From the NCBI RefSeq assembly GCF_000308775.1, contig NZ_BAGJ01000271.1, positions 1 to 64,000 of the forward strand: a stretch of DNA of 64,000 bases, given 5' to 3'. Every line of letters begins with the position of its first letter. Position 1 is the first letter of the stretch. Under the pieces are notes generated by a model. It had not been told where the DNA came from. It ran no database searches and was given only the letters and a program-made list of their open reading frames with translations. Shown here one piece after another: positions 3,067-63,478 of the stretch. The DNA is from Nocardia testacea NBRC 100365. GTDB taxonomy: Bacteria; Actinomycetota; Actinomycetes; Mycobacteriales; Mycobacteriaceae. The translations under genes and the position numbers were made by a program.

Positions 3067-3075
3067 TCGGGGCGC

Positions 3076-3117: not shown

Positions 3118-3159
3118 TGTCGCAGGCACCGGACAAGACCGCCCGCCACACCGGCGCGA

Positions 3160-6914: not shown

Positions 6915-6920
6915 ATTCTC

Positions 6921-6952: not shown

Positions 6953-7010
6953 AATAGGTTCACTGATAAACTCGCGGAATGGTGCACATTCGCGACCGGA
7001 AGCGGTTCTC

Positions 7011-9112: not shown

Positions 9113-9199
9113 TGCTGCTCCGAATCCTCGCTGCTCCGAATATGCGCTGTCGGTGTCCGCGCCCCCGGTCCGGACCCGGGCGCGGACCTCGGGGCGCCG

Positions 9200-25355: not shown

Positions 25356-26192
25356 CTACTTGAGCATCGACCCACAGTCCACCGGCAGCGTCACACCGGT
25401 GAGATAGCGGGCTTCGTCGGAGGACAGGTACAGCACCGCGTTGCTGATATCGATCGGGTCCACCCACGGCACCGGCAGGGTGTGGAACAGCTGGCAGATC
25501 GGCGCCATATCGTCGGCGGTCGGGTTCTCCAGATCCGGGCGGAACATCTTGAAGGTTTTCTCGTTCATGATCATCGCGGTGCTCACATGTGTCGGGTGCA
25601 CCGAGTTGACCCGGATATTGTGCTGCCCGAGTTCCACCGCGAAGGCCCGCATCAGGCCGACCACACCGTGTTTGGCGGAGACGTAGTGCCCCGTCTGCGG
25701 GTATGCCTTGAGACCGCCGACCGAGCTGGTGAGCACGATCGACCCGCCGCGGCCGCCCTCCAGGATGTGCGGGACGCCGGCCTTCACCGATTTCCACACC
25801 CCGCTGAGGTTGACGTCGATCATGTCCTGCCAGACCTGTTCGTCGGTCTCGGCCAGGGTGTCGCCGCCGCTGGCGATCCCGGCGTTGGCGACGATGATGT
25901 CGAGCCGGCCCAGTGTGCCGACCGCTTCGGCGAGCGCGGCCTTCAGGGCGGCCGAATCGCGCACGTCGACCTCGGCGGTGACGACCCGGCGGCCGGTGGC
26001 CTTGACCAATTCCTCGGTTTCGACGAGATCGTCCGGTGTGGCCAGCGGTATCTCGACCGTATCGATCGGTTTACAGATATCGATGGCGATGATGTCGGCG
26101 CCCTCTTCGGCCAGCCGCACCGCGTGGCTGCGGCCCTGGCCGCGGGCCGCGCCGGTGATGAAGGCGACCTTGCCCTCGACCCGTCCGGTCAT
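25356..26192 (-). CDS. Mycofactocin-type short-chain dehydrogenase
   Basis: 278 aa. Signature start [16 protein letters not shown] followed by I-I-A-I-D-I-C, the pattern of the mycofactocin-coupled SDR family (TIGR03971-like). These proteins hold NAD(H) tightly and pass electrons to the peptide redox cofactor mycofactocin. Catalytic Ser in T-S-S-V-G-G and Tyr/Lys in Y-V-S-A-K. The 30-residue insert after beta-2 (D-T-V-E-I-P-L-A-T) is also typical. It lies 58 nt after the P450 gene on the same strand with RBS GAGGAAAAG, so it probably oxidises the alcohol made by that P450 (inference). Mycofactocin biosynthesis genes are not in this window. Confidence 0.88.
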
Positions 26193-30950: not shown

Positions 30951-32147
30951 ATGAGCAAAGTCGAGCTGCCGTACCAGCTCTTCGACGCGGACAACCATCT
31001 CTACGAGACCAAGGAAGCGCTCACCCGCCACCTGCCCAAGCAGTACGAGGGAGCCATCCAGTACGTCGAGATCAACGGCCGCACCAAGATCGCGGTACTC
31101 GGCCAGATCAGCGAGTACATCCCCAACCCCACCTTCGAGGTGGTGGCCCGGCCCGGCGCCATGGAGGAGTACTTCAAGCACGGCAACCCCGAGGGCAAGA
31201 GCCGGCGTGAGATCTTCGGCAAGTCGATGAAGGCGATCGACGCCTTCCGCAATCCCGAGGCCCGGCTGAAGGTCATGGACGATCTCCAGCTCCAGCGCGC
31301 GCTGATGTTCCCCACCCTGGCCAGCCTGGTCGAGGAACGGATGCGCCACCACCCCGAACTGATCCACGCCGTGATCGAATCGCTGAACCGCTGGATGCTC
31401 GACGACTGGGGCCAGGACGGCAACTTCGTGCACTCCGGCCGGATCTTCACCGTCCCGGTGATCACCCTGCCGATCGTCGAGCGCGCTATCGCCGAACTGA
31501 ACTGGGCCGTGGTCGAACACGGCGCCAAGGCCATCCTGGTACGCCCGGCCCCGGTCCCCGGCTTCAAGGGCATGCGCTCGTTCGCGCTGCCGGAGTTCGA
31601 TCCGTTCTGGAAGCGCGTCGTCGAACTCGATGTGCTGGTCACCATGCACTCCTCCGACAGCGGCTATTCCCGCTACGACGCCGAATGGGACGGCAACAGC
31701 CTGGAGATGCTGCCGTTCCAGACCAATACCTTCGCCATGACCAACCAGTGGCGCCCGGTCACCGACGCGGTCGCGTCCTGGGTGTGCCACGGTGCGCTGA
31801 ACCGCTTCCCGGATCTGAAGATCGCTGTCATCGAGAACGGGTCCGCCTGGCTCGAGCCGCTGCTGCAACAGCTGTCCGACGTCTACAAGAAGGCACCGGA
31901 GGGCTTCGGCTTCCGCAACCCGATCGAGGCCATCAAGCAGAGCCTCTACGTCAGCCCCTTCTGGGAAGAAGACCTGGTGCGCCTGTCGGAGGTCATGGGC
32001 GCCGATCATGTGCTGTTCGGGTCCGACTGGCCGCATCCGGAGGGCCTGGCCGAACCGGCGCGCTACATCCACGAGATCAAGGACATGCCGCTGGAGAACC
32101 AGGCCAAGATCATGGGCGGCAACCTGGCCCGGCTGCTCGAGGTCTGA
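30951..32147 (+). CDS. Amidohydrolase_2 (ACMSD-like) metal-dependent hydrolase/decarboxylase
   Basis: 398 aa TIM-barrel protein, RBS GGAGG 5 nt before ATG. Metal-binding Asp14-x-His16 (F-D-A-D-N-H-L-Y-E), a further His in T-M-H-S-S-D, and the late Asp in G-S-D-W-P-H-P-E-G. This is the amidohydrolase_2 family, which contains non-oxidative decarboxylases (ACMSD, resorcylate decarboxylase) and C-C hydrolases. A second, divergent member lies at 34910. Such proteins are frequent in steroid/terpenoid gene clusters of actinomycetes, but the exact reaction is usually unknown. Flanked by two acyl-CoA ligases on the same strand, which suggests it works on a CoA-linked or acid intermediate (inference). 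Confidence 0.8.
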   Translation: MSKVELPYQLFDADNHLYETKEALTRHLPKQYEGAIQYVEINGRTKIAVLGQISEYIPNPTFEVVARPGAMEEYFKHGNPEGKSRREIFGKSMKAIDAFRNPEARLKVMDDLQLQRALMFPTLASLVEERMRHHPELIHAVIESLNRWMLDDWGQDGNFVHSGRIFTVPVITLPIVERAIAELNWAVVEHGAKAILVRPAPVPGFKGMRSFALPEFDPFWKRVVELDVLVTMHSSDSGYSRYDAEWDGNSLEMLPFQTNTFAMTNQWRPVTDAVASWVCHGALNRFPDLKIAVIENGSAWLEPLLQQLSDVYKKAPEGFGFRNPIEAIKQSLYVSPFWEEDLVRLSEVMGADHVLFGSDWPHPEGLAEPARYIHEIKDMPLENQAKIMGGNLARLLEV

Positions 32148-34909: not shown

Positions 34910-36169
34910 GTGAATATCGACGACATGATTCTGGTGAGCATCGACGACCATGTGGTCGAGCCGCGCGATATGTTCGACAATCACGTGCCGAAGAAGTACG
35001 CCGAGTACGTTCCCAAGGTCGTCGTCGACGACGCGGGGATCGATCGCTGGATCTACCGGGACCGGCCCACCGGTGTCACCGGCCTCAACGCGGTCGTCTC
35101 CTGGCCGCCGGAGGAATGGGGTTACGACCCCGCGGGGTACGCCGAAATGCGGCCCGCCGTCTACGACATCCACGACCGGGTACGCGATATGGACGCCAAC
35201 GGCGTTCTCGGCTCCATGTGCTTCCCCACCTTCACCGGTTTCAGCGCCGGGCATCTGAGCCGCGGCGGGATGGACGAGATCACCGTCGCGATGATCTCCG
35301 CCTACAACGACTGGCATATCGAGGAATGGGCCGGCGCCTACCCGGATCGCTTCATCCCGATCGCCATCCTGCCGCTGTGGGAGCCGCAACTGGCCGTCGA
35401 CGAGATCAACCGCGTCGCCGCCAAGGGCTGCCATTCGGTCACCATGCCGGAACTGCCGCATATCGACGGCCTGCCCAGCTATCACGACATCGACTACTGG
35501 GGGCCGGTGTTCCAGGCGCTCAGCGATAACGACACCGTGATGAACCTGCATATCGGCCAGGGTTTCGGCGTCCTCAAGCTGGCCCCGGACGCGCCCATCG
35601 ACAACCTGATGGTCCTCGCGCCCAGTATTTCGCTCATCGGCACCCAGGATCTGCTGTGGGGTCCGGCCTTCCGTAGTTATCCGAAACTCAAGGTCGCCCT
35701 GTCCGAAGGTGGCGTGGGCTGGATCCCGTTCTTCCTGGACCGTTCCGACCGGCACTACACCAACCAGCGTTGGCTGCGGCGCGATTTCGGCGGCAAGATG
35801 CCCAGCGAGGTGTTCCGCGAGCATGTGCTCGCCTGCTACGTCACCGACCCCACCTCGCTGAAACTGCGGCACGAGATCGGCATCGACAACATCGCGTGGG
35901 AATGCGACTACCCGCATTCGGATTCACTGTGGCCGGGCGCGCCGGAATTCGTGCTCGCCGAGCTCGAGGGCGCGGGGGCCGACGATTCCGATATCGACAA
36001 GATCACCTGGCAGAACGCCTGCCGCTTCCTGAACTGGGATCCGTTCGCGCGTACCTCCCGGGAGCAGGCGACGGTCGGCGCGCTGCGCGCGAAGGCCACC
36101 GACGTGGACCTGTCGACCACGACCCGCGCCGAGTACGCCGAGCGCTTCGCGGCCAAGCACGCGAGCTGA
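34910..36169 (+). CDS. Amidohydrolase_2 family protein
   Basis: 419 aa, GTG 34910 with AGGAG 5 nt upstream. Metal ligands: Asp12-x-His14 (S-I-D-D-H-V-V-E-P), His in M-N-L-H-I-G-Q and the late Asp in W-E-C-D-Y-P-H-S-D. It is longer than the first family member, with a distinctive N-terminal insert (R-W-I-Y-R-D-R-P-T-G-V-T-G-L-N). Reaction probably hydrolysis or non-oxidative decarboxylation/hydration at a divalent metal, in the cytosol. It is a single-gene unit with its own tandem operator and a strong downstream hairpin. Co-regulation with the crotonase, ligase, ALDH and SDR operons links it to the same pathway (inference). Confidence 0.8.
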   Translation: MNIDDMILVSIDDHVVEPRDMFDNHVPKKYAEYVPKVVVDDAGIDRWIYRDRPTGVTGLNAVVSWPPEEWGYDPAGYAEMRPAVYDIHDRVRDMDANGVLGSMCFPTFTGFSAGHLSRGGMDEITVAMISAYNDWHIEEWAGAYPDRFIPIAILPLWEPQLAVDEINRVAAKGCHSVTMPELPHIDGLPSYHDIDYWGPVFQALSDNDTVMNLHIGQGFGVLKLAPDAPIDNLMVLAPSISLIGTQDLLWGPAFRSYPKLKVALSEGGVGWIPFFLDRSDRHYTNQRWLRRDFGGKMPSEVFREHVLACYVTDPTSLKLRHEIGIDNIAWECDYPHSDSLWPGAPEFVLAELEGAGADDSDIDKITWQNACRFLNWDPFARTSREQATVGALRAKATDVDLSTTTRAEYAERFAAKHAS

Positions 36170-39838: not shown

Positions 39839-41044
39839 TCAGGCCACCGCGCCGCTGGTCTTCAGCTCGATGATCCGGTCCCAGTCCCAGCCGAGTTCGA
39901 GCAGGACCTCCTCGGTCTGCGCCGCGAACTCCGGCCCGGGGCGCAACTCGGGCGCCCTGACGTCGAATTGCACCGGGCTCGAGACCAGCTCCAGTTCTCC
40001 GGCCGGGAGAATGTACTCGTTGGACCTGATCTGATCGTCCTGCCCCACCTGATACGAGTCCTGGACCGGGGCCCAGGGGCCCTTCAGTGTCGCGAATTTC
40101 TTCGTCCACTCGGCCAGCGTCCGTTGCGCGATGGCCTCGCGCAGGATCTCGACCCCGGCCGCGGTATTGGCGGCGATCTGCGCCGCGTCGGCGAAGCGGG
40201 GGTCCTCGGCCAGCTCCGGGCGGTCGATGTGGCGGCAGACGTCGGCCCAGAACTTCCCGGGTTGCAACATGACGAACGAGAGGTAGCGGTCGTCGGCCGT
40301 GCGGTAGAGACCCGACAGCGGATTCGCCATCGCGCCGTGCGTCCCGGGCCGGGGCGCGAGCATGGGCTCCCCCTGATACGCCGACAGCGCGACCGTGTGC
40401 CCCAGCGACCAGAGGCCGCTGCCCAGCAACGAGACATCCACGACGGACGGTTCCCCGGTGCGCTCCCGCTTCAGTAGCGCCGCGGCGATCCCACCGGCCA
40501 GGTTCGTCCCCGAAATGGTGTCCCCGAACGCCGGACCGGGCGGCTGGATCATCCCGTCGGTGCCCTCCGGAGTGATGGTGGCGGCCACGCCGCCGCGGCA
40601 CCAGAAGGCGGTCATGTCGTAGCCGCCGCGGTCGGCCTCTTGGCCGCGCGGCCCCAGGGCGCTGCCCCGCGCGTAGACGATCGAGGGGTTCACCGCGCGG
40701 ATATCGCCGACATCGATCCCGAACTTCGCCCGCGCCGAGGGCAGGAAACTGGTGAGGAACACATCCGCGCGCCGCGCCAGTTCATGGATGACCGCACGGC
40801 CGTCCGGATTCGACATATCCACGCCGATACTGCGTTTCCCGCGGTTGGCGTGCTCGATATTGGGGTTCGGATCGCCCTCTACCTTGAACTTGCCGATCTG
40901 GCGCAGCCCCCGCTGCGGATCACCGGTGACCGCGTGCTCGACCTTGATCACATTCGCACCCCAGTCGGCGAGCACCGCGCCCGCCGAGGGCACGAACCCG
41001 TACATCGCGACCTCGAGAACCGTGATCCCCTCCAGCGGTTTCAC
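39839..41044 (-). CDS. CaiB/BaiF family CoA transferase
   Basis: 401 aa class III CoA-transferase. N-terminal L-E-V-A-M-Y-G-F-V-P-S-A-G, D-W-G-A-N-V-I-K-V-E-H, R-G-K-R-S-I-G-V-D, then F-G-D-T-I-S-G, where the Asp is the candidate catalytic residue. C-terminal D-W-D-R-I. It transfers CoA between an acyl-CoA and a free acid, or acts as a racemase in the same fold. The start overlaps the stop of the ALDH gene (41041), so the aldehyde-derived acid may be its substrate (inference). The family resembles actinobacterial CaiB proteins in sterol or branched-acid catabolism, including alpha-methylacyl-CoA racemase relatives. Confidence 0.85.
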   Translation of the reverse strand: MKPLEGITVLEVAMYGFVPSAGAVLADWGANVIKVEHAVTGDPQRGLRQIGKFKVEGDPNPNIEHANRGKRSIGVDMSNPDGRAVIHELARRADVFLTSFLPSARAKFGIDVGDIRAVNPSIVYARGSALGPRGQEADRGGYDMTAFWCRGGVAATITPEGTDGMIQPPGPAFGDTISGTNLAGGIAAALLKRERTGEPSVVDVSLLGSGLWSLGHTVALSAYQGEPMLAPRPGTHGAMANPLSGLYRTADDRYLSFVMLQPGKFWADVCRHIDRPELAEDPRFADAAQIAANTAAGVEILREAIAQRTLAEWTKKFATLKGPWAPVQDSYQVGQDDQIRSNEYILPAGELELVSSPVQFDVRAPELRPGPEFAAQTEEVLLELGWDWDRIIELKTSGAVA

Positions 41045-42510
41045 GAAACCACCACTTCCGCGATGGTCTTGCTCTCCATGAACTCCTCCATGCCCACGAC
41101 GCCCATCTCCCGCCCGACACCGGACTGTTTGTAGCCGCCGAAGGGCGCGTCCGGGTGGAAGTAGTTGCCGCCATTGATACTGAAGGTGCCGGTGCGGATC
41201 CGGCGGGCCACGGCCCGCGCGCGCTCCGCGTCGGCGCCGAAGACGCCGCCGGACAGGCCGTAGATGGAGTTGTTGGCGATCCGCACGGCGTCGTCGATAT
41301 CGTCGTACGGGATCAACGCCAGCACCGGGCCGAACACCTCCTCTTGCGCGATCTCGCTGTCGGGATCGACATTCGCCAGCAGCGTCGGCTTGTAGAAGTA
41401 ACCCGGGTCCACCTTCTCGCCACCGGCCACCAGGGTGGCGCCCGCGGCGACCGCCCGCTCCACCAGACCGTGCACCTTGTCGCGCTGGCGTTCACTGATC
41501 AGCGGGCCCATGTAGTTCTTCGGATCGGCCGGGTCGCCATAGGTGATGTTGGCGAGATTGGCCGCGACCAATTCGGCGACCTTGTCGTGGTCGGCCCGGG
41601 GCACCAGCAGCCGGGTGGTGATGGCACAGCCCTGCCCGGCGTGCGAGCAGATGCTGAAAGCGGCGAACATGGCGCCGAGGTTGTAGTCGGCGTCGTCGAG
41701 CAGGATGGCCGCTGATTTTCCGCCGAGTTCGAGGAAGACCTTCTTGAGGGTGGCGCTGGCGGCGGCCATGATCTTGCGGCCCACCGGAGTGGAGCCGGTG
41801 AACGAGACGACATCGACGTCGGGGTGCGTGGTCATCCGTTCCCCCACCGCCACCTCGGAGCTCGCGAGGATGTTCACCACCCCGGCCGGGATATCGGTGT
41901 GGTTCGCGATGAGCTCGCCCAGCGCCAGGGTGATGAGCGGGGTGTCGGGAGCGCCCTTGAGCACCACCGTGCAGCCCGCGGCCAGCGCCGGCGCGAGTTT
42001 GGCGAAGGCCAGCTGGTAGGGATAGTTGTAGGCGGCGATGGCGGCGACGACGCCCGCACCCTCCCTCTCCACCCAGCGCTGGTGCTGCGCACCACGGATC
42101 TCGACCGGGCCGAGGTCCTCGGTCCAGGTGTAGTCCTTCAGCACGCCCGCGTAGTACTTGACGATCTCGAACGGGGTCTCGAGCTGGTTGCCCTTGGTGA
42201 GGATGTAGCTCGCGCCGACCTCGGCGATCATCAGCGCGCGCAGGTCCTCCACATTGTCCTGCAGCGCCTGGTAGAGCTGTTCCAGGCAGCGCGCGCGGAA
42301 TTCGTGGTTCGTCGACCAGTCGGTGGTGTCGAACGCCCGGCGGGCGGCGGCCACCGCGGCATCGACCTCGGCGACACCGGCCTCGGGCGCGTGGCCGACC
42401 ACTTCCCCGGTCGCGGGGTTGAGTGAGGCCAGGGTCGCCCCGGTCTCGACCAGCTGGCCGTCGATGAGCAACCGCTGGGTGGCCGTCACCGCCTCTTCCT
42501 GCGTTGACAT
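41041..42510 (-). CDS. NAD(P)-dependent aldehyde dehydrogenase
   Basis: 489 aa from ATG 42510 with AGGAGG 4 nt upstream; the extension to 42573 runs through operators and is not coding. ALDH motifs: A-A-Y-N-Y-P-Y-Q-L (unusual Y-P in place of W-P), F-T-G-S-T-P-V-G, E-L-G-G-K-S and catalytic Cys295 in G-Q-G-C-A-I-T. It oxidises a bulky aldehyde to an acid. Two GAGAAT-type operators cover the promoter (42532 and 42554). Operon with the CaiB gene downstream; divergent from the SDR/ferredoxin/P450 operon. The A-Y-N-Y-P variant places it apart from the ALDH at 9483. Confidence 0.88.
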   Translation of the reverse strand: MSTQEEAVTATQRLLIDGQLVETGATLASLNPATGEVVGHAPEAGVAEVDAAVAAARRAFDTTDWSTNHEFRARCLEQLYQALQDNVEDLRALMIAEVGASYILTKGNQLETPFEIVKYYAGVLKDYTWTEDLGPVEIRGAQHQRWVEREGAGVVAAIAAYNYPYQLAFAKLAPALAAGCTVVLKGAPDTPLITLALGELIANHTDIPAGVVNILASSEVAVGERMTTHPDVDVVSFTGSTPVGRKIMAAASATLKKVFLELGGKSAAILLDDADYNLGAMFAAFSICSHAGQGCAITTRLLVPRADHDKVAELVAANLANITYGDPADPKNYMGPLISERQRDKVHGLVERAVAAGATLVAGGEKVDPGYFYKPTLLANVDPDSEIAQEEVFGPVLALIPYDDIDDAVRIANNSIYGLSGGVFGADAERARAVARRIRTGTFSINGGNYFHPDAPFGGYKQSGVGREMGVVGMEEFMESKTIAEVVVS

Positions 42511-42531
42511 CCCGCCTCCTCGAAAGTTTAT

Positions 42532-42568
42532 GAAAATTGCATTCTCGTTTGAGGAGAATAGTACATTT
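42532..42568. promoter_or_regulatory. Tandem operators of the ALDH/CaiB operon
   Basis: GAAAAT-TGC-ATTCTC at 42532 and GAGAAT-AGT-ACATTT at 42554, 22 bp apart. They begin 22 bp upstream of the ALDH start codon. Confidence 0.6.
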
Positions 42569-42675
42569 GGCAAGGGAGTCCGGCTGCCGATTCGGTGAGC
42601 TGGGGCAATCCGGAACCGTCCGCAGGCCGGCCGCCTTCACGCGGCACCCGCCGATCTTGCGGACCCGAACTGGAC

Positions 42676-42712
42676 GAGAGTACGGTTCTCACTATTCGGA
42701 ATGCATATTCTT
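42676..42712. promoter_or_regulatory. Operator of the SDR/ferredoxin/P450 operon
   Basis: GAGAGT-ACG-GTTCTC at 42676, with a degenerate second copy ending ATTCTT at 42698-42712 in the same 22-bp register. Centre about 62 bp upstream of GTG 42745. Confidence 0.55.
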
Positions 42713-42744
42713 GCGCCGGTGGGCGCGGGAGAGGAGAGGCAGGC

Positions 42745-43452
42745 GTGAAAACCGCAGTTGTCACCGGCGGCGCCTCGGGCATCGGACTGGCCATCGCGCG
42801 GCGGTTGCGCAGCGACGGGTTCCACGTGGCCGCCCTGGACCGTAATGCCGCCGCGGAGGACGATTCCGCCTACCGGGCCGATGTGACCGATCCGGACAGC
42901 ATCGCCGAAGCCCTCGGGGCCGTGCGCGAGAAATTGGGGCCGGTCACCGTGCTGGTGAACGCGGCCGGGGTCGACGGGTTCAAACGGTTCCAGAACATCG
43001 ACTTCGCGGAATGGCAGCGGGTCATCGAGGTGAACCTGCACGGCGTCTTCCACACCATCCAGGCCGTACTGCCGGATATGATCGACGCCGGCTGGGGCCG
43101 CATCGTGAACATCTCCTCCTCGAGCGCACAGTCGGGTCAGCCGTTCATGTCCCACTATGTCTCCTCGAAATCAGCGGTCAACGGCCTCACCAAATCGCTG
43201 GCGCTGGAACTGGGCCCATCGGGGATCACGGTGAACGCGGTGCCACCCGGTTTCATCGACACCCCGATGCTGCGCCGCTCCGAGGAGCGCCGGCTGCTCG
43301 GCGGCACCGTCGAGGACCATATCCAGCGCACCCCGGTGCGGCGTGTCGGCAAACCCGAGGATATCGCCGCAACCTGCGCTTTCCTGATCTCCGAGGAGGC
43401 CGGCTACATCACCGGCCAGATCATCGGCGTCAACGGCGGACGCAACACCTGA
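42745..43452 (+). CDS. SDR oxidoreductase, FabG-like
   Basis: 235 aa from GTG 42745 (GAGGAGAGG upstream). T-G-G-A-S-G-I-G-L-A cofactor loop, A-L-D-R (Asp selecting NAD), N-A-A-G-V-D, catalytic Ser in S-S-S-S-A-Q and Y-V-S-S-K. Compact FabG-type, probably dehydrogenating a hydroxyacyl-CoA or an alcohol. First gene of a plus-strand operon that continues to the ferredoxin 44 nt downstream and the P450. Co-regulated with the divergent ALDH through the operators between them. It could act on the product of the P450 in the same operon (inference). Confidence 0.85.
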   Translation: MKTAVVTGGASGIGLAIARRLRSDGFHVAALDRNAAAEDDSAYRADVTDPDSIAEALGAVREKLGPVTVLVNAAGVDGFKRFQNIDFAEWQRVIEVNLHGVFHTIQAVLPDMIDAGWGRIVNISSSSAQSGQPFMSHYVSSKSAVNGLTKSLALELGPSGITVNAVPPGFIDTPMLRRSEERRLLGGTVEDHIQRTPVRRVGKPEDIAATCAFLISEEAGYITGQIIGVNGGRNT

Positions 43453-43496: not shown

Positions 43497-43691
43497 GTGA
43501 AGGTTCATGTCGATCAGGAACGCTGCCAGGGGCACACCCTGTGCTCGATGATCGCGCCGAAAGCGTTCGAACTCAGCGAAATCGACGGGCATTCCTCGCC
43601 GGTCGACGAAAACGTAGCCCACGACCAAGAGGACCTGGTGCGCGAAGCGGTGCACTCGTGCCCCGAGCGCGCGATCTCACTCACCGAATAG
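43497..43691 (+). CDS. [3Fe-4S] ferredoxin, P450 electron donor
   Basis: 64 aa from GTG 43497 with AAGGGAAG upstream. Cys10-x2-His13-x2-Cys16 and Cys55-Pro56 give the single-cluster motif with His in place of the second Cys, the actinobacterial [3Fe-4S] type that feeds CYP enzymes. It precedes the P450 by 15 nt, so it is the likely redox partner. A ferredoxin reductase is not encoded in the window. Close relative of the ferredoxin at 57819. Confidence 0.9.
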   Translation: MKVHVDQERCQGHTLCSMIAPKAFELSEIDGHSSPVDENVAHDQEDLVREAVHSCPERAISLTE

Positions 43692-45185: not shown

Positions 45186-46871
45186 ATGTCATCGACGACC
45201 GGCGAGGAACCGGCACCCCGATCGGGGCGGCCGCTACCGCTGCTGTCCCTGGACACCGAGTTCTTCTGGACGTCGGGCGCCGACGGGAACCTCCGGATCC
45301 AGGAGTGCCGGGCGTGCGCGGCCCTGATCCACCCGCCGCAGCCGATCTGTCGCTACTGCCGGAGCCGCGAGCTGGCGCCCCGGATCGTCTCGGGCACGGC
45401 GGTACTGGCCTCGTTCACCGTCAACCACCGATTCGGCCTGCCGGGTCTCCCACCGCCGTACGTGGTGGCGACGGTGGCGCTGGACGACGATCCGCGGGTC
45501 CGGCTGACCACCAATATCGTCGACTGTGATCCCGGCGAGCTCACTCTGGGCATGCGGCTGGAGGTGGTGTTCCGGCAGGACGACGATGTGTGGCTGCCGC
45601 TGTTCCGGCCCGCTGCGCACCAACCCGGCCCGGCCCCGCTTCCGGTCGACGAGATACCCGCCGATCAGTTCGCCCTCCACGTCACCACGAGGCGGCCGCG
45701 CGCCAAGTTCGAGGACAGCGTCGCACTCACCGGAATCGGGATGTCGCGGATAGGGCGGCGGCTCATGCGGCCACCGCTGGAACTCACCGTCGACGCCTGC
45801 CAGCAGGCGATCACCGATGCGGGCCTGGGCCTCGACGATATCGACGGGCTGTCCTCGTATCCTGGTGGCGGCAACCTCGGCGGTTTCGGGGAGGGTGGGG
45901 TCACCGCGCTGGAGTCCGCGCTCGGTATCCGGCCCACCTGGCACAACGGTGGAATAGAGACCTTCGGACCGGGCGGGTCGGTGATCGCGGCCATGCTCGC
46001 GGTGCACGCGGGTCTGGCCACCCACGTGCTGTGTTTCCGCACGGTCTGGGAGGCCACCTTCAACGAGCTGATGAAACGGGGCACGATTCCCGCGTCCGGC
46101 GGCGGCCGCACCGCGAGCTGGATGCATCCCTTCGGTTCCACCTCCGCCGCGCATACCCTGGCGCAGAAGGCGCAGCGGCATTTCCACGACTACGGCACCA
46201 CCCGCGAAACCCTCGGCTGGATCGCGCTGAACCAGCGCGCGAACGCCGCGCTGAACCCGAGCGCGGTCTACCGCGATCCGATGACGATGGACGACTATCT
46301 GAACGCGCGGCCGATCACCACACCGTTCGGACTCTACGACTGCGATGTCCCCTGCGACGGCGCCGTCGCGGTGATCGTCTCGGCCCGGGAGGCCGCCGCG
46401 GATCTTCCCGTACCCACCATCCGAGTGGAGGCGGTGGGCACCCAGATCGTCGAACGAATCGAATGGGATCAGAGCACGCTGACGCACGAACCGCAGGTCC
46501 TCGGTCCCGCGGCCCATCTGTGGACCCGCACCGAGCTACGACCCGACGATGTGGATGTCGCCGAGCTGTACGACGGATTCACCATCAACTGCCTGTCCTG
46601 GATCGAAGCGCTCGGCTTCTGCAAGATCGGTGAGGCCAAGGACTTCCTGGACGGCGGGAAGAACATCGCCCGCGACGGCATCCTGCCGCTGAACACGCAC
46701 GGCGGCCAACTCTCGCACGGCCGCACCCACGGCATGGGGCTGATGCACGAGGCGATCGTCCAACTGCGCGGGACCGCCGGGGAACGGCAGGTGCGCGACG
46801 CGAAGGTGGCGGTGGTGTCCAGCGGGGGCCTCACACCGGGCGGTGCGGTGCTGCTGCGGAGCGAATCCTGA
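45186..46871 (+). CDS. DUF35 OB-fold / thiolase-like (Ltp) fusion, candidate acyl-CoA retro-aldolase
   Basis: 561 aa, GAGGAGG before ATG. Residues 20-160: DUF35 zinc-ribbon plus OB-fold with Cys pairs (E-C-R-A-C and I-C-R-Y-C). Residues 175-560: thiolase-fold lipid-transfer-protein domain (S-V-A-L-T-G-I-G-M-S, Y-D-G-F-T, N-T-H-G-G-Q-L-S-H-G-R). The nucleophilic Cys of true thiolases is absent (T-F-G-P-G-G-S-V), and the C-terminal Cys position reads S-S-G-G. In steroid degradation, separate Ltp2 and DUF35 proteins form an aldolase that cleaves side chains. Here both parts are one chain, so a retro-aldolase or hydroxyacyl-CoA lyase role is likely (inference). Within the P450 operon. Confidence 0.8.
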   Translation: MSSTTGEEPAPRSGRPLPLLSLDTEFFWTSGADGNLRIQECRACAALIHPPQPICRYCRSRELAPRIVSGTAVLASFTVNHRFGLPGLPPPYVVATVALDDDPRVRLTTNIVDCDPGELTLGMRLEVVFRQDDDVWLPLFRPAAHQPGPAPLPVDEIPADQFALHVTTRRPRAKFEDSVALTGIGMSRIGRRLMRPPLELTVDACQQAITDAGLGLDDIDGLSSYPGGGNLGGFGEGGVTALESALGIRPTWHNGGIETFGPGGSVIAAMLAVHAGLATHVLCFRTVWEATFNELMKRGTIPASGGGRTASWMHPFGSTSAAHTLAQKAQRHFHDYGTTRETLGWIALNQRANAALNPSAVYRDPMTMDDYLNARPITTPFGLYDCDVPCDGAVAVIVSAREAAADLPVPTIRVEAVGTQIVERIEWDQSTLTHEPQVLGPAAHLWTRTELRPDDVDVAELYDGFTINCLSWIEALGFCKIGEAKDFLDGGKNIARDGILPLNTHGGQLSHGRTHGMGLMHEAIVQLRGTAGERQVRDAKVAVVSSGGLTPGGAVLLRSES

Positions 46872-46887
46872 TGGCCCGGGGCGCGCG

Positions 46888-47859
46888 GTGACGCTGACCG
46901 GGTCCGAGCTGACGCCGGCCGAATCCACCGGCCCGCTGCCGGTGGTCGCCGAAGTGCCCGGAGTCGACGGGATTCCGGTATCCGGACTGCTGGCCGAGGC
47001 GCCCGACCCGCGGGCGGTCGTGGTCGCCCTGCACGGCGGCGCCGTGGATTCGCGGTATTTCGACTGTCCCGGCCATCGGGATCACTCGCTGCTGCGCACC
47101 GGGCAGCGGCTCGGCTACACCGTGCTCGCGCTGGACCGCCCCGGCTTCGGCAGTTCGGCTCCGCACGCCGAGTTCCTGGAGCCGCCGCGGCGCCGGGTGG
47201 ACCTCGTCTTCGGAGCAGTCGACGCGCTCCTGGACGGGCTGCCCCGCGGTGCGGGCGTCTTCCTGCTCGCGCATTCGGCGGGTTGCGAACTCGCGGTCCG
47301 GATGGCGGCGTCCGAACGCGGCGCCGACCTGCTCGGACTCGAACTCGCCGGAACCGGGCGCCGGCACCGGCAGGCCGCCCACGACCTGCTCTGGGGCGCC
47401 GACCGGGTGGCCGGCCGGCGGCCACGTGGGGTCGGCCGGCTGATCTGGGAGCCGGCCCGGCTCTACCCCGACGACGTCCTGGGCGGTGGCACGGTCTCCG
47501 CACAGGGCTCGCATCTGGAGTCGCGGGCGCTGCACGACTGGGCCGCGCGGGAATTCCTCGGCCTGGCGCCCGATATCGGTGTTCCGGTGCGGTACAGCCT
47601 GGGTGAATACGAACGGGTCTGGCGCAACGATCCCGCGGAGATGGTCGCGGTCGGGGGCCTGTTCACCCGCTCCCCTCGGGTCGTGGTGAACCTCATGCCC
47701 AATACCGGTCACAACGTGAGCCTCGGCCGCACCGCCCCGGCCTACCACCTCACCGTCCTGGCCTTCGCCGAGCAGTGCATCATCGCCCGCAGGACCGGAG
47801 AGTTCTCCGGCCCTGCCCTGCAATTCGACGGCGGCGCGGCCGCGCCGCCGGGAAGGTAA
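46888..47859 (+). CDS. Alpha/beta-hydrolase
   Basis: 323 aa from GTG 46888. Oxyanion-hole region A-L-H-G-G-A-V, nucleophile elbow A-H-S-A-G-C (Ser), late Asp/Glu region and catalytic His in N-T-G-H-N. Alpha/beta-hydrolase fold of esterase/lactonase/C-C-hydrolase type without lid motif. Starts 16 nt after the preceding stop and is followed 4 nt later by the DoxX gene. Possible role: hydrolysis of an ester, thioester or ring-cleavage product after the aldolase step (inference). Confidence 0.75.
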   Translation: MTLTGSELTPAESTGPLPVVAEVPGVDGIPVSGLLAEAPDPRAVVVALHGGAVDSRYFDCPGHRDHSLLRTGQRLGYTVLALDRPGFGSSAPHAEFLEPPRRRVDLVFGAVDALLDGLPRGAGVFLLAHSAGCELAVRMAASERGADLLGLELAGTGRRHRQAAHDLLWGADRVAGRRPRGVGRLIWEPARLYPDDVLGGGTVSAQGSHLESRALHDWAAREFLGLAPDIGVPVRYSLGEYERVWRNDPAEMVAVGGLFTRSPRVVVNLMPNTGHNVSLGRTAPAYHLTVLAFAEQCIIARRTGEFSGPALQFDGGAAAPPGR

Positions 47860-47863
47860 CCGA

Positions 47864-48385
47864 ATGGACGTCACCGATATCGCATTGCTGCTGCTCCGAC
47901 TGGTCGTGGGCGGCACCATGATCGCGCACGGGGTCAACCACTGGATCGGCGGTGGCAAGATCGCCGGCACCGCCGGCTGGTTCAGCGGACTCGGGTTACG
48001 CCACGGCGTACTGCAGGCCTGGTTGAGTGTGATCACCGAGATCGGCGCGGGAGCACTGCTGGTCGTGGGTTTGCTCACCCCGCTGGCCGCCGCGGCGGTG
48101 ATCTCGGTGATGCTGGTCGCCGCCCTGCTCGCGCACCGCAAGAACGGCTTCTTCGTGTTCAAGGACGGCTACGAGTACGTCCTGGTCCTCGCCGTCGTCG
48201 CGCTGGCGCTCGGCATCCTCGGACCCGGATGGCTGTCGCTGGACCACGCTGCCGGGATCGAGCTCACCGGCTGGGGCGGCGGCGCCGTCGCGCTGGGGGT
48301 CGGTGTGGTCGCCACCGCCGGTCTGCTGGCGGTGTTCTGGCGACCGGCCACCCCGGAACCGGAGTCGGCGGACGCCGATTCCTGA
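47864..48385 (+). CDS. DoxX-family membrane protein
   Basis: 173 aa with four predicted membrane helices (I-A-L-L-L-L-R-L-V-V-G-G-T-M-I; L-S-V-I-T-E-I-G-A-G-A-L-L-V-V; Y-V-L-V-L-A-V-V-A-L-A-L-G-I-L; A-L-G-V-G-V-V-A-T-A-G-L-L). The first helix carries the family's G-G-T-M-I-A-H-G and the second loop T-E-I-G-A-G-A-L-L. DoxX proteins are linked to respiratory or redox chains, sometimes next to thiosulfate or oxygenase genes. The reason for its place in this catabolic operon is unknown. RBS GGAAGG upstream. Confidence 0.75.
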   Translation: MDVTDIALLLLRLVVGGTMIAHGVNHWIGGGKIAGTAGWFSGLGLRHGVLQAWLSVITEIGAGALLVVGLLTPLAAAAVISVMLVAALLAHRKNGFFVFKDGYEYVLVLAVVALALGILGPGWLSLDHAAGIELTGWGGGAVALGVGVVATAGLLAVFWRPATPEPESADADS

Positions 48386-48406: not shown

Positions 48407-49246
48407 ATGCGCGTCGGATTCATCGGACTGGGAAGTCAGGGCGGGCCCATGGCCCGCCGAATCGTCGAGTCCGGGTACCGGACCACGCTGTGGGCGCGCC
48501 GCCGCGCCGCCACCGAACCCTATGCGGATACCGCGGCGAAAGTGGCCGGCAGTCCCGCGGAACTCGCCGGCGACAGTGATCTGGTGTGCCTGTGCGTGGT
48601 CGGTGACGCCGATGTGCGTGAAGTCCTCGAACGCGCCGACGGCGTGCTGGCGGGATTCGCCGCCTCCGCCGCCGGGCGCGAGACGGCACCGGTGATCGCG
48701 ATCCACAGCACGGTCCATCCCGACACCTGTCGCGAGCTGGCCGAAATTGCTGGCACCCAGGGGGTTTCGCTCATCGACGCACCGGTCAGCGGCGGGGCAC
48801 CCGCCGTCGCGGCCGGGCGGCTGCTGGTGATGGCCGGGGGCGACGAGCAGACCTTCGCCCGCTGCCGGCCGGTATTCGAGACGTACGCGAACCCGGTCGT
48901 GCATCTGGGCGGTGTCGGCGCCGGGCAGACCACCAAACTGCTCAACAATCTCCTGTTCACCGCGCATATGGCCACCGCGGTGAGCACCTTGGAACTGGGC
49001 GCCCGGCTGGGTGTGAGCCCCGACCGGCTCGGCGAGGTGATCGGCAACGGCAGCGGGAACAGTTTCGCGCTCGGCCGCATCCTGGCCGGTGGTGGAACTC
49101 TCGACCAGATCGCCGCGCATGCCGGTGATCTACTGCGCAAAGACGTCCGGCTGATCAGCGAACTGGCCGATGCCGCACAGATCGCCCCCGGCGTGGTACT
49201 CGATACCGCCGACGCCACGCTCGCCCTGATGGGCCGCCCCCGCTGA
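48407..49246 (+). CDS. NAD(P)-dependent beta-hydroxyacid dehydrogenase family protein
   Basis: 279 aa. Rossmann G-F-I-G-L-G-S-Q-G (Q replaces the more common M/R), D-A-P-V-S-G-G, then the catalytic lysine in G-Q-T-T-K-L-L-N-N. 3-hydroxyisobutyrate / 6-phosphogluconate dehydrogenase-like. ATG 48407 has GAGAGAGG upstream. Likely oxidises a 3-hydroxyacid or reduces an oxo acid in the same pathway. A second, about 35-40% similar-looking copy follows at 49383, suggesting consecutive or isomer-specific steps (inference; identity judged by eye). Confidence 0.8.
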   Translation: MRVGFIGLGSQGGPMARRIVESGYRTTLWARRRAATEPYADTAAKVAGSPAELAGDSDLVCLCVVGDADVREVLERADGVLAGFAASAAGRETAPVIAIHSTVHPDTCRELAEIAGTQGVSLIDAPVSGGAPAVAAGRLLVMAGGDEQTFARCRPVFETYANPVVHLGGVGAGQTTKLLNNLLFTAHMATAVSTLELGARLGVSPDRLGEVIGNGSGNSFALGRILAGGGTLDQIAAHAGDLLRKDVRLISELADAAQIAPGVVLDTADATLALMGRPR

Positions 49247-49382: not shown

Positions 49383-50204
49383 GTGCGTATCGGATTCATC
49401 GGCGCCGGCCGCATGGGAACCCCCATGATCCGGCGCCTGACGGCCGCCGGGCACAGTGTCCGCGCGCTCGGGCGCGATCCCGGCGCCCGCGCCGCGATCA
49501 CCGCGACCGGCGCCACCGCGCTCGGCTCGGCGGCCGAGGCCGGCCGGGACGCCGAGGCGGTGGTGGTCTGTGTTTTCACCGATCAGCAGGTCCGCGAGGT
49601 GTGTCTGGACAGCGGACTACTCGAGACGATGCCGCCCGGCTCGGTCCTGATCCTGCACACCACCGGCAGCCCCGACACCGCGACGACGATCGCCGCCGCC
49701 CCGGCCGCTGCCGGACGCCATGTGGTCGACGCCCCGGTGAGCGGGGGCCCGCACAATATCGCCGACGGTTCCCTCACGGTCTTCCTGGGCGGCTCGGCCG
49801 ACGCGACCGCGCGGGCGCGACCCGTGCTGGCCGCGTACGCCGATCCGGTCTTGCCGGTCGGGGAACTGGGTAACGGGCAGCGCGTGAAACTCGTCAACAA
49901 TTCGCTGTTCGCCGCCCAGATCGGCCTGGTCACCGAGGCCGTGCGGCTGGCGGGGGAACTGGGCCTCACCGAGGCCGAAATCCTTTCCGCACTGCCCCAT
50001 GCCAGCAGTTCTGGGCGTGCGGTACTGAGTGTGGCGGCCAAGGGATCGGTGGCGGCGTTCGCGGAGTCGGTGGGCGATTTCCTGCGCAAGGATGTCGCCG
50101 TGGCCCGCGAAGTCGCCGACCGGCTGGGCAGCGATCTCGGCCTGCTCGATCCGGCCATCCGCGCGGCGGTCGGACTGGGCCCTACCGCCGTGAGCAAGGG
50201 ATAG
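49383..50204 (+). CDS. NAD(P)-dependent beta-hydroxyacid dehydrogenase family protein
   Basis: 273 aa from GTG 49383 (AAGGAG 6 nt upstream). G-F-I-G-A-G-R-M-G-T-P-M, A-P-V-S-G-G-P, catalytic lysine in G-N-G-Q-R-V-K-L-V-N-N. Same family as the preceding gene and probably its paralogue. A 136-nt gap without a hairpin or operator separates them, so they may still share a transcript. Last gene of the operon; only an unassigned 248-nt stretch follows before the cupin gene. Confidence 0.8.
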   Translation: MRIGFIGAGRMGTPMIRRLTAAGHSVRALGRDPGARAAITATGATALGSAAEAGRDAEAVVVCVFTDQQVREVCLDSGLLETMPPGSVLILHTTGSPDTATTIAAAPAAAGRHVVDAPVSGGPHNIADGSLTVFLGGSADATARARPVLAAYADPVLPVGELGNGQRVKLVNNSLFAAQIGLVTEAVRLAGELGLTEAEILSALPHASSSGRAVLSVAAKGSVAAFAESVGDFLRKDVAVAREVADRLGSDLGLLDPAIRAAVGLGPTAVSKG

Positions 50205-56380: not shown

Positions 56381-56439
56381 GTTCGCCGGTCCTCCGGTTG
56401 ACGCACGGCACACCGTGTGGAAATCTCATATTCACAGAT

Positions 56440-56454
56440 GAGAGTTATATTCTC
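56440..56454. promoter_or_regulatory. Operator between the dehydrogenase and P450 operons
   Basis: GAGAGT-TAT-ATTCTC, five of six arm pairs symmetric. It lies in the 143-bp divergent promoter of the acyl-CoA dehydrogenase pair and the P450/ferredoxin pair. Confidence 0.6.
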
Positions 56455-56523
56455 AATTGCGAAAGTCAACCGGCGGAGCTGCTCGTGGCGGTGGGTGCCG
56501 GCCGAGCGAAGGGAACCCGTCAC

Positions 56524-57813
56524 GTGAAAAACTTCGAGGATCTGGACTTCTTCCTCGGCCAGGAGCTGGTCGCCGATCCCTATCCGTACTTCGACGCCCT
56601 TCGCGAGAAGTGCCCGGTGACCCGCGAGAAGCACCACAACGTCATGATGGTGACCGGCTACGACGAGGCACTGGAAGTTCTCAACGACGCCGAGCGCTTC
56701 TCCTCCTGTATCTCGGTGACCGGGCCGTTCCCCGGCTTTCCCGTCCCCATCGACGAGAACTCCGACGCCGACGCCCTCATCGCCGAACACCGCGATTCGC
56801 TGCCGTTCAGCGACCAGCTGCCGGCCCTGGATCCGCCGGCCCATACCGCCCACCGTGGGCTGCTCATGCGGCTGATCACCCCCAAACGCCTCAAGGAGAA
56901 CGAAGAGGCGATGTGGGATCTGGCCGACAAGATGCTCGACGAGTACCTGGCGCCCGGAAAAGGGGAACTCATCCGGGATTTCGCGGGCCCCTTCACCCTC
57001 TACGTGATCGCGGACCTGCTCGGTGTACCGCCGGAGGACCAGGAGGAGTTCCTCAACACGTTGCAGCGCGATCCGCACCGTACCGGCACGGTCGGCAGCA
57101 CCAGCTCCGATCACGCCATGGAGCACAACCCGATCGAGTTCCTGTACGAGAAGTTCTCCACCTATATCGAGGACCGCCGCAAGAACCCGCGCGGCGACGT
57201 GCTGACCGGTCTCGCCGAGGCCACCTTCCCCGACGGCAGCCGGCCGGAGGTGATCGACGTGGTCCGGGTCGCCGCCAACCTCTTCTCGGCCGGCCAGGAG
57301 ACCACCGTGCGGCTGCTGTCCTCGGGATTGAAACTGATCGCCGAGGATCCGGAACTGCAGTCCTGGCTGCGCGGAGACCCGGAACGCATCAACAACTTCA
57401 TCGAAGAGATGCTGCGGATGGAGAGCCCGGTGAAGGGTGATTTCCGGCTGGCGAAGACCACGACCACAGTAGGCGGCGTGGAGGTCCCGGCGGGCACGGT
57501 CCTGATGCTCGCCAACGGTGGCGCCAACCGCGACCCGCGGCGTTTCGAGAACCCGGGCGTTTTCGACGCCAAGCGGTCCAATGCCCGCTCCCATATCGCC
57601 TTCGGCCGGGGTATCCACACCTGCCCCGGCGCCCCACTGGCCCGCACCGAGGCGAAGGTGGCGTTCAAGCGCCTGCTGGAGCGCACCACCGATATCCGGA
57701 TCGACGAGAGCGCCCACGGTCCGGCCGGCGCGCGCAGATACCAGTATCTGCCGACCTTCATCCTGCGCGGGATCACCGCACTGCACCTGGAATTCGACCG
57801 GACGGAAGGGTGA
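56524..57813 (+). CDS. Cytochrome P450 (paralogue of the 26251 enzyme)
   Basis: 429 aa from GTG 56524 (AAGGGA upstream); the frame extends upstream through the operator region and that part is not coding. I-helix A-G-Q-E-T-T, K-helix E-E-M-L-R, heme loop F-G-R-G-I-H-T-C-P-G with Cys367. Shares long stretches with the P450 at 26251, so the two arose by duplication or are closely related CYP members acting on similar substrates. The ferredoxin follows 5 nt after the stop and supplies electrons. Cytosolic. Confidence 0.92.
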   Translation: MKNFEDLDFFLGQELVADPYPYFDALREKCPVTREKHHNVMMVTGYDEALEVLNDAERFSSCISVTGPFPGFPVPIDENSDADALIAEHRDSLPFSDQLPALDPPAHTAHRGLLMRLITPKRLKENEEAMWDLADKMLDEYLAPGKGELIRDFAGPFTLYVIADLLGVPPEDQEEFLNTLQRDPHRTGTVGSTSSDHAMEHNPIEFLYEKFSTYIEDRRKNPRGDVLTGLAEATFPDGSRPEVIDVVRVAANLFSAGQETTVRLLSSGLKLIAEDPELQSWLRGDPERINNFIEEMLRMESPVKGDFRLAKTTTTVGGVEVPAGTVLMLANGGANRDPRRFENPGVFDAKRSNARSHIAFGRGIHTCPGAPLARTEAKVAFKRLLERTTDIRIDESAHGPAGARRYQYLPTFILRGITALHLEFDRTEG

Positions 57814-57818
57814 GCCAC

Positions 57819-58022
57819 ATGAAGGTCATCGTCGACGAGGACTCCTGCAAGGGGCACGGGATCTGCACCACCCTGTGCTCGGAAGTGTTCGCGCTCAACG
57901 ACTACGGCTACGCCGAGGCGGTCGCCGAGGACATCCCCGAGGATCTGCACGAGGCGGTGCTGACCGCCAAGGACGCCTGCCCCGAATGGGCGATCAAGAT
58001 CGTCGACGAGAGCGAGGGCTGA
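57819..58022 (+). CDS. [3Fe-4S] ferredoxin
   Basis: 67 aa from ATG 57819 (GGGTGAG RBS); a GTG at 57810 overlapping the P450 stop is a weaker alternative. Cys10-x2-His13-x2-Cys16 and Cys54-Pro55 bind a single [3Fe-4S] cluster. Acidic surface typical of CYP redox partners. Serves the P450 immediately upstream and possibly its paralogue at 26251, which has no ferredoxin beside it (inference). Confidence 0.9.
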   Translation: MKVIVDEDSCKGHGICTTLCSEVFALNDYGYAEAVAEDIPEDLHEAVLTAKDACPEWAIKIVDESEG

Positions 58023-60981: not shown

Positions 60982-62241
60982 CTAGAATCCTCGTTTCTCG
61001 ATGAGGCGGGCGGTCCGGGCCAGTTCGTCGCGGAAGCCGGGATGGGCGATACCGATGAGGCGCCGGGCGCGTTCGGCCAGCGACTGTCCGGCCAGTTCGG
61101 CGGCGCCGTATTCGGTGACGACGATGTCGACTTCGGTCCGCGCGGTGGTGACCGGCCCGGACAGCGCCGCGGTGATCCGGCTGACGGTGCCGTTGCGGGC
61201 GGTGGCGGGCAGCGCGATGATCGACCGGCCCCCGGGCGAGCGCACCCCGGCCCGGACGAAATCCACCTGGCCGCCGGTGCCGCCGAGATAGCTCTCGCCG
61301 GATTGTTCGGCGTTCACCTGGCCGGTCAGGTCCACCTCCAGCGCGGAGTTGAGCGTGACGAGGTGGTCGAGCCGCGCGAGAACGGCGGCATCGTGGGTGT
61401 AGGAGGTGGGGCACATGCGCAACGCCGGATTGCGATGGGCGAAATCGTAGAGCCGCCGGGTGCCGATGAGAGCACCCGTGATCGAGACACCCGGGTCGAT
61501 CCGTTTGCGCGCGTTGGTGATCACGCCGGCCTCGACGAGGTCGACGAGGCCGTCCCCCATCATTCCCGAGTGGACGCCGAGATCGCGGCGGTCGCCCAGC
61601 AGCCGCACGACCGCGTCCGGGACGGCACCGATACCGATCTGCAGAACCGCACCGTCGCCGATGTACTCGGTGATGTGCCGGGCGACGGCCTCGTCCACCG
61701 CGCCGATCGCGGCGGACGCCACCTCCACCGGCGGGTTCGATACGGTGACCGCGCAATCGATCTCGGCGGCGGCCAGTGATTCGCCGAAGGTGTCGGGTAC
61801 CTGATCGTTGACCTCCGCGATCACCACCCGGGCCCGTGCGACCGCGGCCCGGACGTAGTCGCCGACGAGTCCGCAGCTGTGTCTGCCCGCGGCATCGGCG
61901 GGACCGACCTGGACGAGCGCCACATCGCAGCCGAGCTCGCCCGATTCGATCATGGGAGCCACCCGGCCCACATGGCACGGCACGATATCGAGTTCGTGGC
62001 TGCGGGTGAGGCCGCGCAACGCGCCGATGGCGCCCATACTCGACAGCGCGAAGGATCGCCCGACCCCGGGCACGAACTTCCCGGAGAAGCTGGTCGCGGT
62101 GAAGGCGGACAGCTTTCCGATACGCGGCCCCTGCTCGATGAGGGCGTCGACGAGAGTGGTCGGCTCACCGCAGGCCTGCCCGATGACGATCCGGTCGCCG
62201 GGGCGCAGCCACTGCCCCAGGTCGAGGTCCGGCGCACTCAC
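60982..62241 (-). CDS. Acetyl-CoA hydrolase / 4-hydroxybutyrate CoA-transferase family
   Basis: 419 aa from GTG 62241, whose GTGA overlaps the CaiB stop; a longer frame continues through CaiB but in its shadow. Class I CoA-transferase: G-Q-A-C-G-E-P-T-T-L, D-V-A-L-V-Q-V-G-P-A-D, G-I-G-A-V-P-D-A-V and E-Q-S-G-E, with a candidate catalytic Glu. Moves CoA between acids, or hydrolyses acyl-CoA. Together with CaiB it makes two different CoA-transferase types in one operon, suggesting recycling of CoA between a bulky acid and a small acyl donor (inference). Confidence 0.85.
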   Translation of the reverse strand: MSAPDLDLGQWLRPGDRIVIGQACGEPTTLVDALIEQGPRIGKLSAFTATSFSGKFVPGVGRSFALSSMGAIGALRGLTRSHELDIVPCHVGRVAPMIESGELGCDVALVQVGPADAAGRHSCGLVGDYVRAAVARARVVIAEVNDQVPDTFGESLAAAEIDCAVTVSNPPVEVASAAIGAVDEAVARHITEYIGDGAVLQIGIGAVPDAVVRLLGDRRDLGVHSGMMGDGLVDLVEAGVITNARKRIDPGVSITGALIGTRRLYDFAHRNPALRMCPTSYTHDAAVLARLDHLVTLNSALEVDLTGQVNAEQSGESYLGGTGGQVDFVRAGVRSPGGRSIIALPATARNGTVSRITAALSGPVTTARTEVDIVVTEYGAAELAGQSLAERARRLIGIAHPGFRDELARTARLIEKRGF

Positions 62242-63428: not shown

Positions 63429-63478
63429 ACGCCCTACCTTCACCGGGCCGGCCGGACAAATCGGCGGCTATCTGATGA

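Follow-up and report, generated by a model that had tools for sequence, protein, structure and literature searches.

A fused DUF35-Ltp protein of Nocardia testacea belongs to a clade with its own active-site residues and is predicted to act as a single-chain retro-aldolase

The described DUF35-dependent aldolases, Ltp2 and Sal, share one fold and use different acid-base residues. In TcLtp2, the catalytic base is Tyr294, located in a YDHF motif, the acid is Tyr344 and His296 lies in the oxyanion hole, whereas CtSal relies on Tyr302 and Cys304 of a YDCY motif and carries Gln352 at the place of Tyr344; SCP2-thiolases are characterized by catalytic cysteines and an HDCF motif (PMC12329534, accessible part). 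The same part of that source reports that the cleft of CtSal is shaped by the zinc finger of DUF35 and that the CtSal-DUF35 complex loses activity on dilution. Here, we analyzed a gene located at 45186..46871 (+ strand) in a stretch of 64,000 nucleotides of Nocardia testacea NBRC 100365 (contig NZ_BAGJ01000271.1, positions 1 to 64,000; hereafter the window), whose product unites a DUF35 and an Ltp domain in a single chain and displays a third residue set, fixed in a clade of its own.

The gene encodes 561 amino acids, from an ATG at 45186 to a stop codon ending at 46871, and its frame is intact, with zero internal stops. The protein features a zinc ribbon (residues 28-63; 45267..45374, +; zf-ChsH2, PF12172, E 1.7e-9), the OB fold of DUF35 (residues 68-130; 45387..45575, +; OB_ChsH2_C, PF01796, E 6.1e-16), a linker (about residues 147-173; 45624..45704, +) and an Ltp / thiolase-fold domain (about residues 174-561; 45705..46868, +), the latter recognized by sequence and structure matches and containing a Thiolase_C_1 match at residues 447-550 (E 2.6e-33). 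All three Pfam matches exceed the curated cut-offs. The best PDB sequence match of the N-terminal part is the DUF35 domain of ChsH2 (6ok1_B, E 1e-17) and that of the C-terminal part is TcLtp2 (6ok1_A, E 3.5e-51), both chains belonging to the same solved complex, Ltp2-ChsH2(DUF35). In total, 23 distinct PDB sequences matched the fused protein, the best listed stretch of each being confined to one half; 5m3k_C, 6esq_A and 9skh combine the same fold with a DUF35 partnership.

A contig scan for relatives yielded 583 candidate stretches encoding one, the best 80 of which form our orthologue set. All 80 are fused and align over nearly their full length at 72-97% identity, in open frames of 550-572 amino acids, the closest being that of Nocardia sienata (97% identity). 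The first-pass annotation of this DNA had placed DUF35 and Ltp/thiolase-like domains in one chain, and the coordinates, the Pfam domains and these orthologues agree with it. The four zinc ligands (Cys41, Cys44, Cys55 and Cys58, spaced C-x2-C-x10-C-x2-C) are kept in 81 of 81 fused proteins, i.e. the window protein plus the 80 orthologues, indicating that the DUF35 half is under constraint. The least conserved blocks of the alignment include the N-terminus (0.61), residues 141-180 (mean 0.71-0.76) and residues 301-320 (0.72).

Alignment with an SCP2-type thiolase paralogue (L005) revealed no cysteine in the fused protein at the place of the nucleophilic Cys, and the HDCF motif of the paralogue reads YDGF (Tyr462-Asp-Gly-Phe465; 46569..46580, +). 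The catalytic thiolase cysteines are thus replaced at both positions, as first noted from the sequence, and the reading as a true thiolase was rejected. The catalytic bases of TcLtp2 (Tyr294) and CtSal (Tyr302) have Tyr462 as their counterpart in the alignment, while Gly464 occupies the His/Cys place of their motifs. Arg513 (46722..46724, +) is found at the place of the catalytic Tyr344 of TcLtp2 and of Gln352 of CtSal, and Asp387 (46344..46346, +) at that of Cys215 of TcLtp2, as counted from the PDB sequence-match alignment. Asp387, Tyr462-Phe465 and Arg513 are identical in all 81 fused proteins.

To place the protein, a tree was built from 59 chosen Ltp-domain rows comprising the window protein, a selection of fused orthologues, split homologues of genomic and plasmid origin, paralogues from the own genome and three PDB sequences. 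In this tree, which has long branches, the window protein falls in a clade of 48 rows (support 100/99) apart from TcLtp2, CtSal and 4u4e; outside this clade, TcLtp2 groups with L002, a paralogue from the own genome (100/100). The clade comprises 22 fused and 26 split members (DUF35 as its own gene), from actinobacteria and proteobacteria. Asp387 and Gly464 are each present in 48/48 clade rows and in none of the 11 outside rows, and Arg513 in 47/48 and 0/11, respectively; Tyr462, at the catalytic-base position, and Asp463 are likewise found in 48/48 clade rows. Two members deviate, L113 without Arg513 and Cys386, and L144 with YDGI. The clade residues were absent from the five PDB sequences (of the 23 matched) compared by printed alignment. 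An Ltp2 orthologue is ruled out by YDGF instead of YDHF, by Arg513 instead of Tyr344 and by the separate clade, and a Sal orthologue by Gly464 in all 48 clade rows (hence no YDC[YF] with the catalytic Cys) and, again, by the separate clade.

Within the clade, 21 fused rows form one well-supported group (100/100) and the remaining fused member, L106 (45% identity), branches elsewhere, in a weakly supported position. This topology would be compatible with either one or two fusion events, as the tree needs two label changes and the supported branches force one. The plasmid sample consisted of 17 of the 40 listed matches, two of which (L141 and L146) came without annotation, leaving 15 annotated regions. 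In nine of ten annotated split clade members on plasmids, the DUF35 gene immediately precedes the Ltp gene and overlaps it by 1 or 4 nucleotides; L143, the tenth, has the two separated by three genes. The fused form has the gene order of the plasmid split pairs, DUF35 first. In split members from genomes, the DUF35 gene may precede the Ltp gene, follow it or diverge from it. On a plasmid of Mycobacterium intracellulare (L136), the DUF35 gene beside the clade Ltp is annotated over only 201 nucleotides (8166-8366) although the tblastn match extends 165 nucleotides beyond its upstream end; the true start may lie earlier than annotated.

Two AlphaFold2 models were computed. The first, based on 56 close orthologues, reached a predicted local distance difference test (pLDDT) score of 47.2 and a predicted template modelling (pTM) score of 0.33; the second, based on 49 rows including four distant ones, reached a mean pLDDT of 67.1 and a pTM of 0.55, with DUF35-half blocks (residues 21-150) at 75-94. 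A Foldseek search with the second model ranked 6ok1_A first (E 9.8e-23, 32% identity, root-mean-square deviation 10.9), and a VIA-align superposition on 6ok1_A covered 296 residues at 3.3 A with Z 27.5, a score that other thiolase-fold entries equalled. The second model thus supports a thiolase fold, and its support does not extend to function, to domain packing or to active-site geometry.

The reading that we favor, a prediction drawn from sequence comparison and modelling, is that this protein is probably a DUF35-equipped single-chain retro-aldolase acting on beta-hydroxyacyl-coenzyme A (beta-hydroxyacyl-CoA). It accounts best for the absence of the thiolase cysteines together with the presence of the base Tyr of Ltp2 and Sal, and is further suggested by the thiolase fold, by the retention of this Tyr throughout the clade and by neighbors that would handle CoA esters and aldehydes. 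In the putative mechanism, Tyr462 would deprotonate the beta-hydroxyl and the C-C bond would be cleaved to release an aldehyde or ketone and a short acyl-CoA, with Arg513, and perhaps Asp387, replacing His296 and Tyr344 of TcLtp2 in the stabilization or protonation of the enolate. The fused DUF35 would act as a scaffold shaping the substrate cleft. At loci with the divergent aldehyde dehydrogenase and CoA-transferase, these two enzymes would convert the aldehyde product to an acid and a CoA ester. We infer the reaction, the substrate class and the roles of Arg513, Asp387 and DUF35. In cholate degradation, the product of Sal is reported to be an aldehyde that is oxidized and then re-esterified (PMC11321319, accessible part), and an aldehyde dehydrogenase and a type III CoA-transferase beside the fused gene fit such a succession of aldehyde release, oxidation and re-esterification.

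A single-chain retro-aldolase had already been proposed in the first-pass annotation; the fold, the loss of the cysteines, the conserved Tyr and the neighbors speak for it, but the protein cannot be seen simply as Ltp2 plus DUF35, as it belongs to another clade and carries Asp387, Gly464 and Arg513. Nor did the steroid side-chain setting of that proposal find support, nothing in this analysis tying the fused protein to steroids while an apparent chsH2-ltp2 locus lies elsewhere in the genome, on contig C264; the steroid pathway was therefore dropped as the default.

Several points weigh against the retro-aldolase. The general acid of both known aldolase types is gone, Tyr344 being replaced by Arg and Cys304 by Gly. 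In the second model, pLDDT is below 50 around Asp387, residues 463-468 and Arg513. DUF35 was reported to be unimportant for the activity of Ltp2 (PMC11321319, within its accessible part). We surveyed the surroundings of 70 of the 80 orthologues, those with at least 4 kb on both sides (10 were dropped), using tblastn at E 1e-12 with half of the query covered; many of these loci come from close strains and they are not independent. Aldehyde dehydrogenase, CoA-transferase and DoxX genes were found in 0/31 loci of Mycobacteriaceae (DNA compared by tblastn), so that the aldehyde-processing step does not belong to an invariant module. Lastly, a MaoC hydratase that would make the beta-hydroxyacyl-CoA was found in 0/70 loci with four queries of limited recall: these matched MaoC genes in two plasmid loci other than their source and nothing in L002 and L009, and they missed the PF13452 domain of a ChsH2-like frame of the same genome (C264:100273-100689).

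A role in acyl transfer or condensation through an acyl-enzyme is improbable: 5m3k_C, 6esq_A and 9skh match in fold and DUF35 partnership, but the fused protein has no Cys to which an acyl group could be attached. Another reading is C-C cleavage by a different acid-base route, e.g. a retro-Claisen or decarboxylating one in which Arg513 would bind a second carboxylate of the substrate. We regard such a route as unlikely, albeit worth keeping in view: Asp387 and Arg513 are clade-fixed (48/48 and 47/48) and missing from all 11 outside rows, which speaks for it, yet the aldolase base Tyr is kept in every clade row and a second carboxylate is unsupported. That the protein is a non-catalytic scaffold or lipid carrier uniting other enzymes of the pathway is very improbable; DUF35 domains do serve as scaffolds in related complexes (PMC12329534, accessible part), but the putative active-site residues Tyr462, Asp463, Gly464 and Asp387 are fixed in 48/48 rows. 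We can set aside with near certainty an assembly or frameshift artefact, to which the many relatives that encode DUF35 and Ltp in two genes with an overlap of 1 or 4 nucleotides might point, since 80 separate records (the best 80 of 583) show one open frame of 550-572 amino acids and four plasmids carry the fused form annotated as a single 'OB-fold domain-containing protein'.

Among the best 80 stretches, fused orthologues occur in Nocardia, Rhodococcus, Mycobacterium, Mycolicibacter, Mycolicibacterium, Williamsia, Aldersonia, Amycolatopsis, Actinomadura, Thermomonospora and Streptomyces. We also sampled 396 genomes of the phylum separately; matches reached E 1e-60 or better in 22 of them, and 15 of these 22 (own genome counted) had one that was nearly full-length and in one open frame. 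The genome of N. testacea itself has 10 Thiolase_C_1 and 11 OB_ChsH2_C matches, which share a frame only in the window gene; three scans of viral contigs returned zero relatives of the fused protein. The fusion is therefore widespread, and a 2010 paper (PMC2954200, accessible part) already noted that DUF35 homologues are joined to thiolase-superfamily members. The type of fusion has been generically known since then; what appears to be new is the Asp/YDGF/Arg variant. The open-access literature, outside which most subscription papers lie, yielded no description of the fused protein or of the Asp/YDGF/Arg clade, and no characterized or solved clade member was found; the plasmid records inspected give clade members no names beyond 'OB-fold domain-containing protein', 'thiolase family protein' and similar ones.

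In the window, the fused gene is preceded on the + strand by a short-chain dehydrogenase gene (42595..43452, its domain beginning near 42745), a small ferredoxin-like gene (43497..43691, named by sequence inspection) and, just upstream, a cytochrome P450 gene (43707..45059; PF00067), the last two being conserved neighbors. Downstream, also on the + strand, are an alpha/beta hydrolase gene (46843..47859; PF12697), whose open reading frame overlaps the end of the fused gene and whose true start is likely the GTG at 46888, a DoxX family gene (47864..48385) located between the hydrolase and the first dehydrogenase, and two genes for 3-hydroxyisobutyrate dehydrogenase-like proteins (48407..49246 and 49383..50204). 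Divergent from these, on the - strand, lie genes for an aldehyde dehydrogenase (41041..42573; PF00171, with TIGR04284 below its cut-off) and a type III CoA-transferase (39839..41044; PF02515), which overlap by 4 nucleotides. The P450/short-chain dehydrogenase surroundings, downstream hydrolase and two dehydrogenases pointed out earlier were thus recovered, and the ferredoxin-like, DoxX, aldehyde dehydrogenase and CoA-transferase genes were added. No polyketide or carrier-protein gene was found among the ten scanned neighbor proteins (which included the P450, aldehyde dehydrogenase, CoA-transferase, short-chain dehydrogenase, hydrolase, DoxX, both dehydrogenases and a cupin). A phmmer search of the hydrolase against the PDB gave zero matches, and the PDB matches of the P450 (CYP125 ancestor, P450cin and others) are too distant for naming a substrate.

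The surrounding region (9483-63443) resembles a catabolic island, several of its genes being named by sequence inspection and some gene calls in the wider window resting on a crude GC-position script. It holds two further P450s, one at 26251-27519 and one that shares 56398-58022 with a ferredoxin-like gene, as well as a mycofactocin-type short-chain dehydrogenase (25356-26192), acyl-CoA dehydrogenases, a CoA ligase, a second CoA-transferase (62238-63443) and two PF04909 amidohydrolases (30951-32147 and 34910-36169, both +). Annotated amidohydrolases also occur in 9 of the 15 annotated plasmid regions fetched (Rhodococcus, Mycobacterium, Streptomyces, Sphingomonas and Massilia). On a plasmid of Mycobacterium branderi, the unfused member L143 lies in a compact set (1655-9179) that closely parallels the Nocardia set, with an amidohydrolase, a Gfo/Idh oxidoreductase, DUF35, an alpha/beta hydrolase, an aldehyde dehydrogenase, a CoA-transferase and Ltp.

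Across the 70 loci, the most frequent neighbors are the dehydrogenase-like gene (68), P450 (67), hydrolase (63), short-chain dehydrogenase (43), aldehyde dehydrogenase (36) and DoxX (32), followed by CoA-transferase (27), amidohydrolase (17), acyl-CoA dehydrogenase (15), CoA ligase (9) and enoyl-CoA hydratase (8). Since about 36 distinct P450 frames (43 matches) in the 7.27 Mb of the own genome correspond to roughly 0.07 expected per 13.7 kb, the association of P450 with the fused gene hardly arises by chance, though the loci are interrelated. In the 39 non-mycobacterial loci, aldehyde dehydrogenase is found in 36, CoA-transferase in 27 and DoxX in 32. The loci of Mycobacteriaceae (L040, L045-L049 and others) keep the hydrolase and the dehydrogenase (30/31 each) and contain different P450s, with 26-29% identity to that of the window where one matches. 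Of 11 plasmid loci scanned, 6 contain a CoA-transferase similar to the one beside the fused gene (45-51% identity). The other CoA-transferase of the window (62238-63443) shows 29-32% identity to these six genes, a difference that suggests a pathway role common to the former and its plasmid counterparts.

A bolder proposal, which we put forward tentatively and consider rather doubtful, is that the clade could represent a third catalytic type (Tyr/Asp/Arg) of DUF35-linked aldolase working in a short route in which the P450 would install the beta-hydroxyl. An oxygenase would be followed by CoA activation, the fused aldolase and an aldehyde dehydrogenase, shortening the chain without an acyl-CoA dehydrogenase or hydratase. 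This is hinted at by the frequency of P450 (67/70) next to that of acyl-CoA dehydrogenase (15/70), enoyl-CoA hydratase (8/70) and MaoC (0/70, with limited recall), and by the gene order on a plasmid of Rhodococcus oxybenzonivorans, where an AMP-binding gene and a P450 precede the fused gene and an aldehyde dehydrogenase follows further on in the same direction. Speaking against such a route, the window does contain acyl-CoA dehydrogenases and an enoyl-CoA hydratase-like gene at a greater distance, and a PF13452 (MaoC-type) match (C4:67059-67427) is located about 20 kb from the fused gene, 3 kb beyond the window end; PF01575 had zero matches on this contig.

With the Ltp2-ChsH2(DUF35) system (TcLtp2, 6ok1), the fused protein has in common a thiolase fold without the thiolase cysteines, a Tyr base in YDxF and a DUF35 partner with a four-cysteine (C4) zinc finger. 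It differs from TcLtp2 in being one chain, in YDGF, Arg513 and Asp387 in the places of YDHF, Tyr344 and Cys215, and in its separate clade, and its DUF35 is not joined to a MaoC domain as in ChsH2. With the bile-acid aldolase Sal-Shy(DUF35) of Comamonas testosteroni (9myr), it shares the Tyr base and the DUF35 partner, and the oxidation and CoA esterification that follow the aldehyde product of Sal are mirrored by the aldehyde dehydrogenase and CoA-transferase neighbors where these are present; CtSal, however, has YDCY with Cys304 and Gln352 where the fused protein has Gly464 and Arg513, and the zinc finger of CtShy is of the C3H1 type (PMC12329534, accessible part) instead of the canonical C4. 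The SCP2-thiolases (6hsj, 3zbg) share the fold, the catalytic cysteines and HDCF being theirs only.

Two further systems pair such a protein with a separate DUF35. In Mycolicibacterium neoaurum, deletion of chsH4 is reported to block a pathway branch, so that a free-standing DUF35 without MaoC is needed in vivo (PMC10398937, accessible part); Atf1-ChsH4 thus resembles the fused protein in its aldolase with a MaoC-free DUF35 partner and differs by its two polypeptides and steroid substrate. In ibuprofen degradation, encoded on plasmid pIBU218, the IpfDE thiolase is said to yield propionyl-CoA (PMC9195938, accessible part). IpfD, which we took as L147:13640-14827 from its position beside OB-fold, AMP-binding and dioxygenase genes, is likewise an Ltp-type protein with a separate DUF35 (OB-fold) gene, but it has 33% identity, YDAF, DCC and a Tyr at the place of Arg513. 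It was rejected as a functional anchor of the clade, since its residues and a quick 21-row FastTree both place it outside. The other Ltp of pIBU218 (YDHF, Tyr) likewise falls outside the clade.

Next to Ltp2 and Sal, a third clade-fixed residue set offers a direct test of how the thiolase fold becomes an aldolase, and the fused form, which provides both parts from one gene, may avoid the dilution loss reported for CtSal-DUF35.

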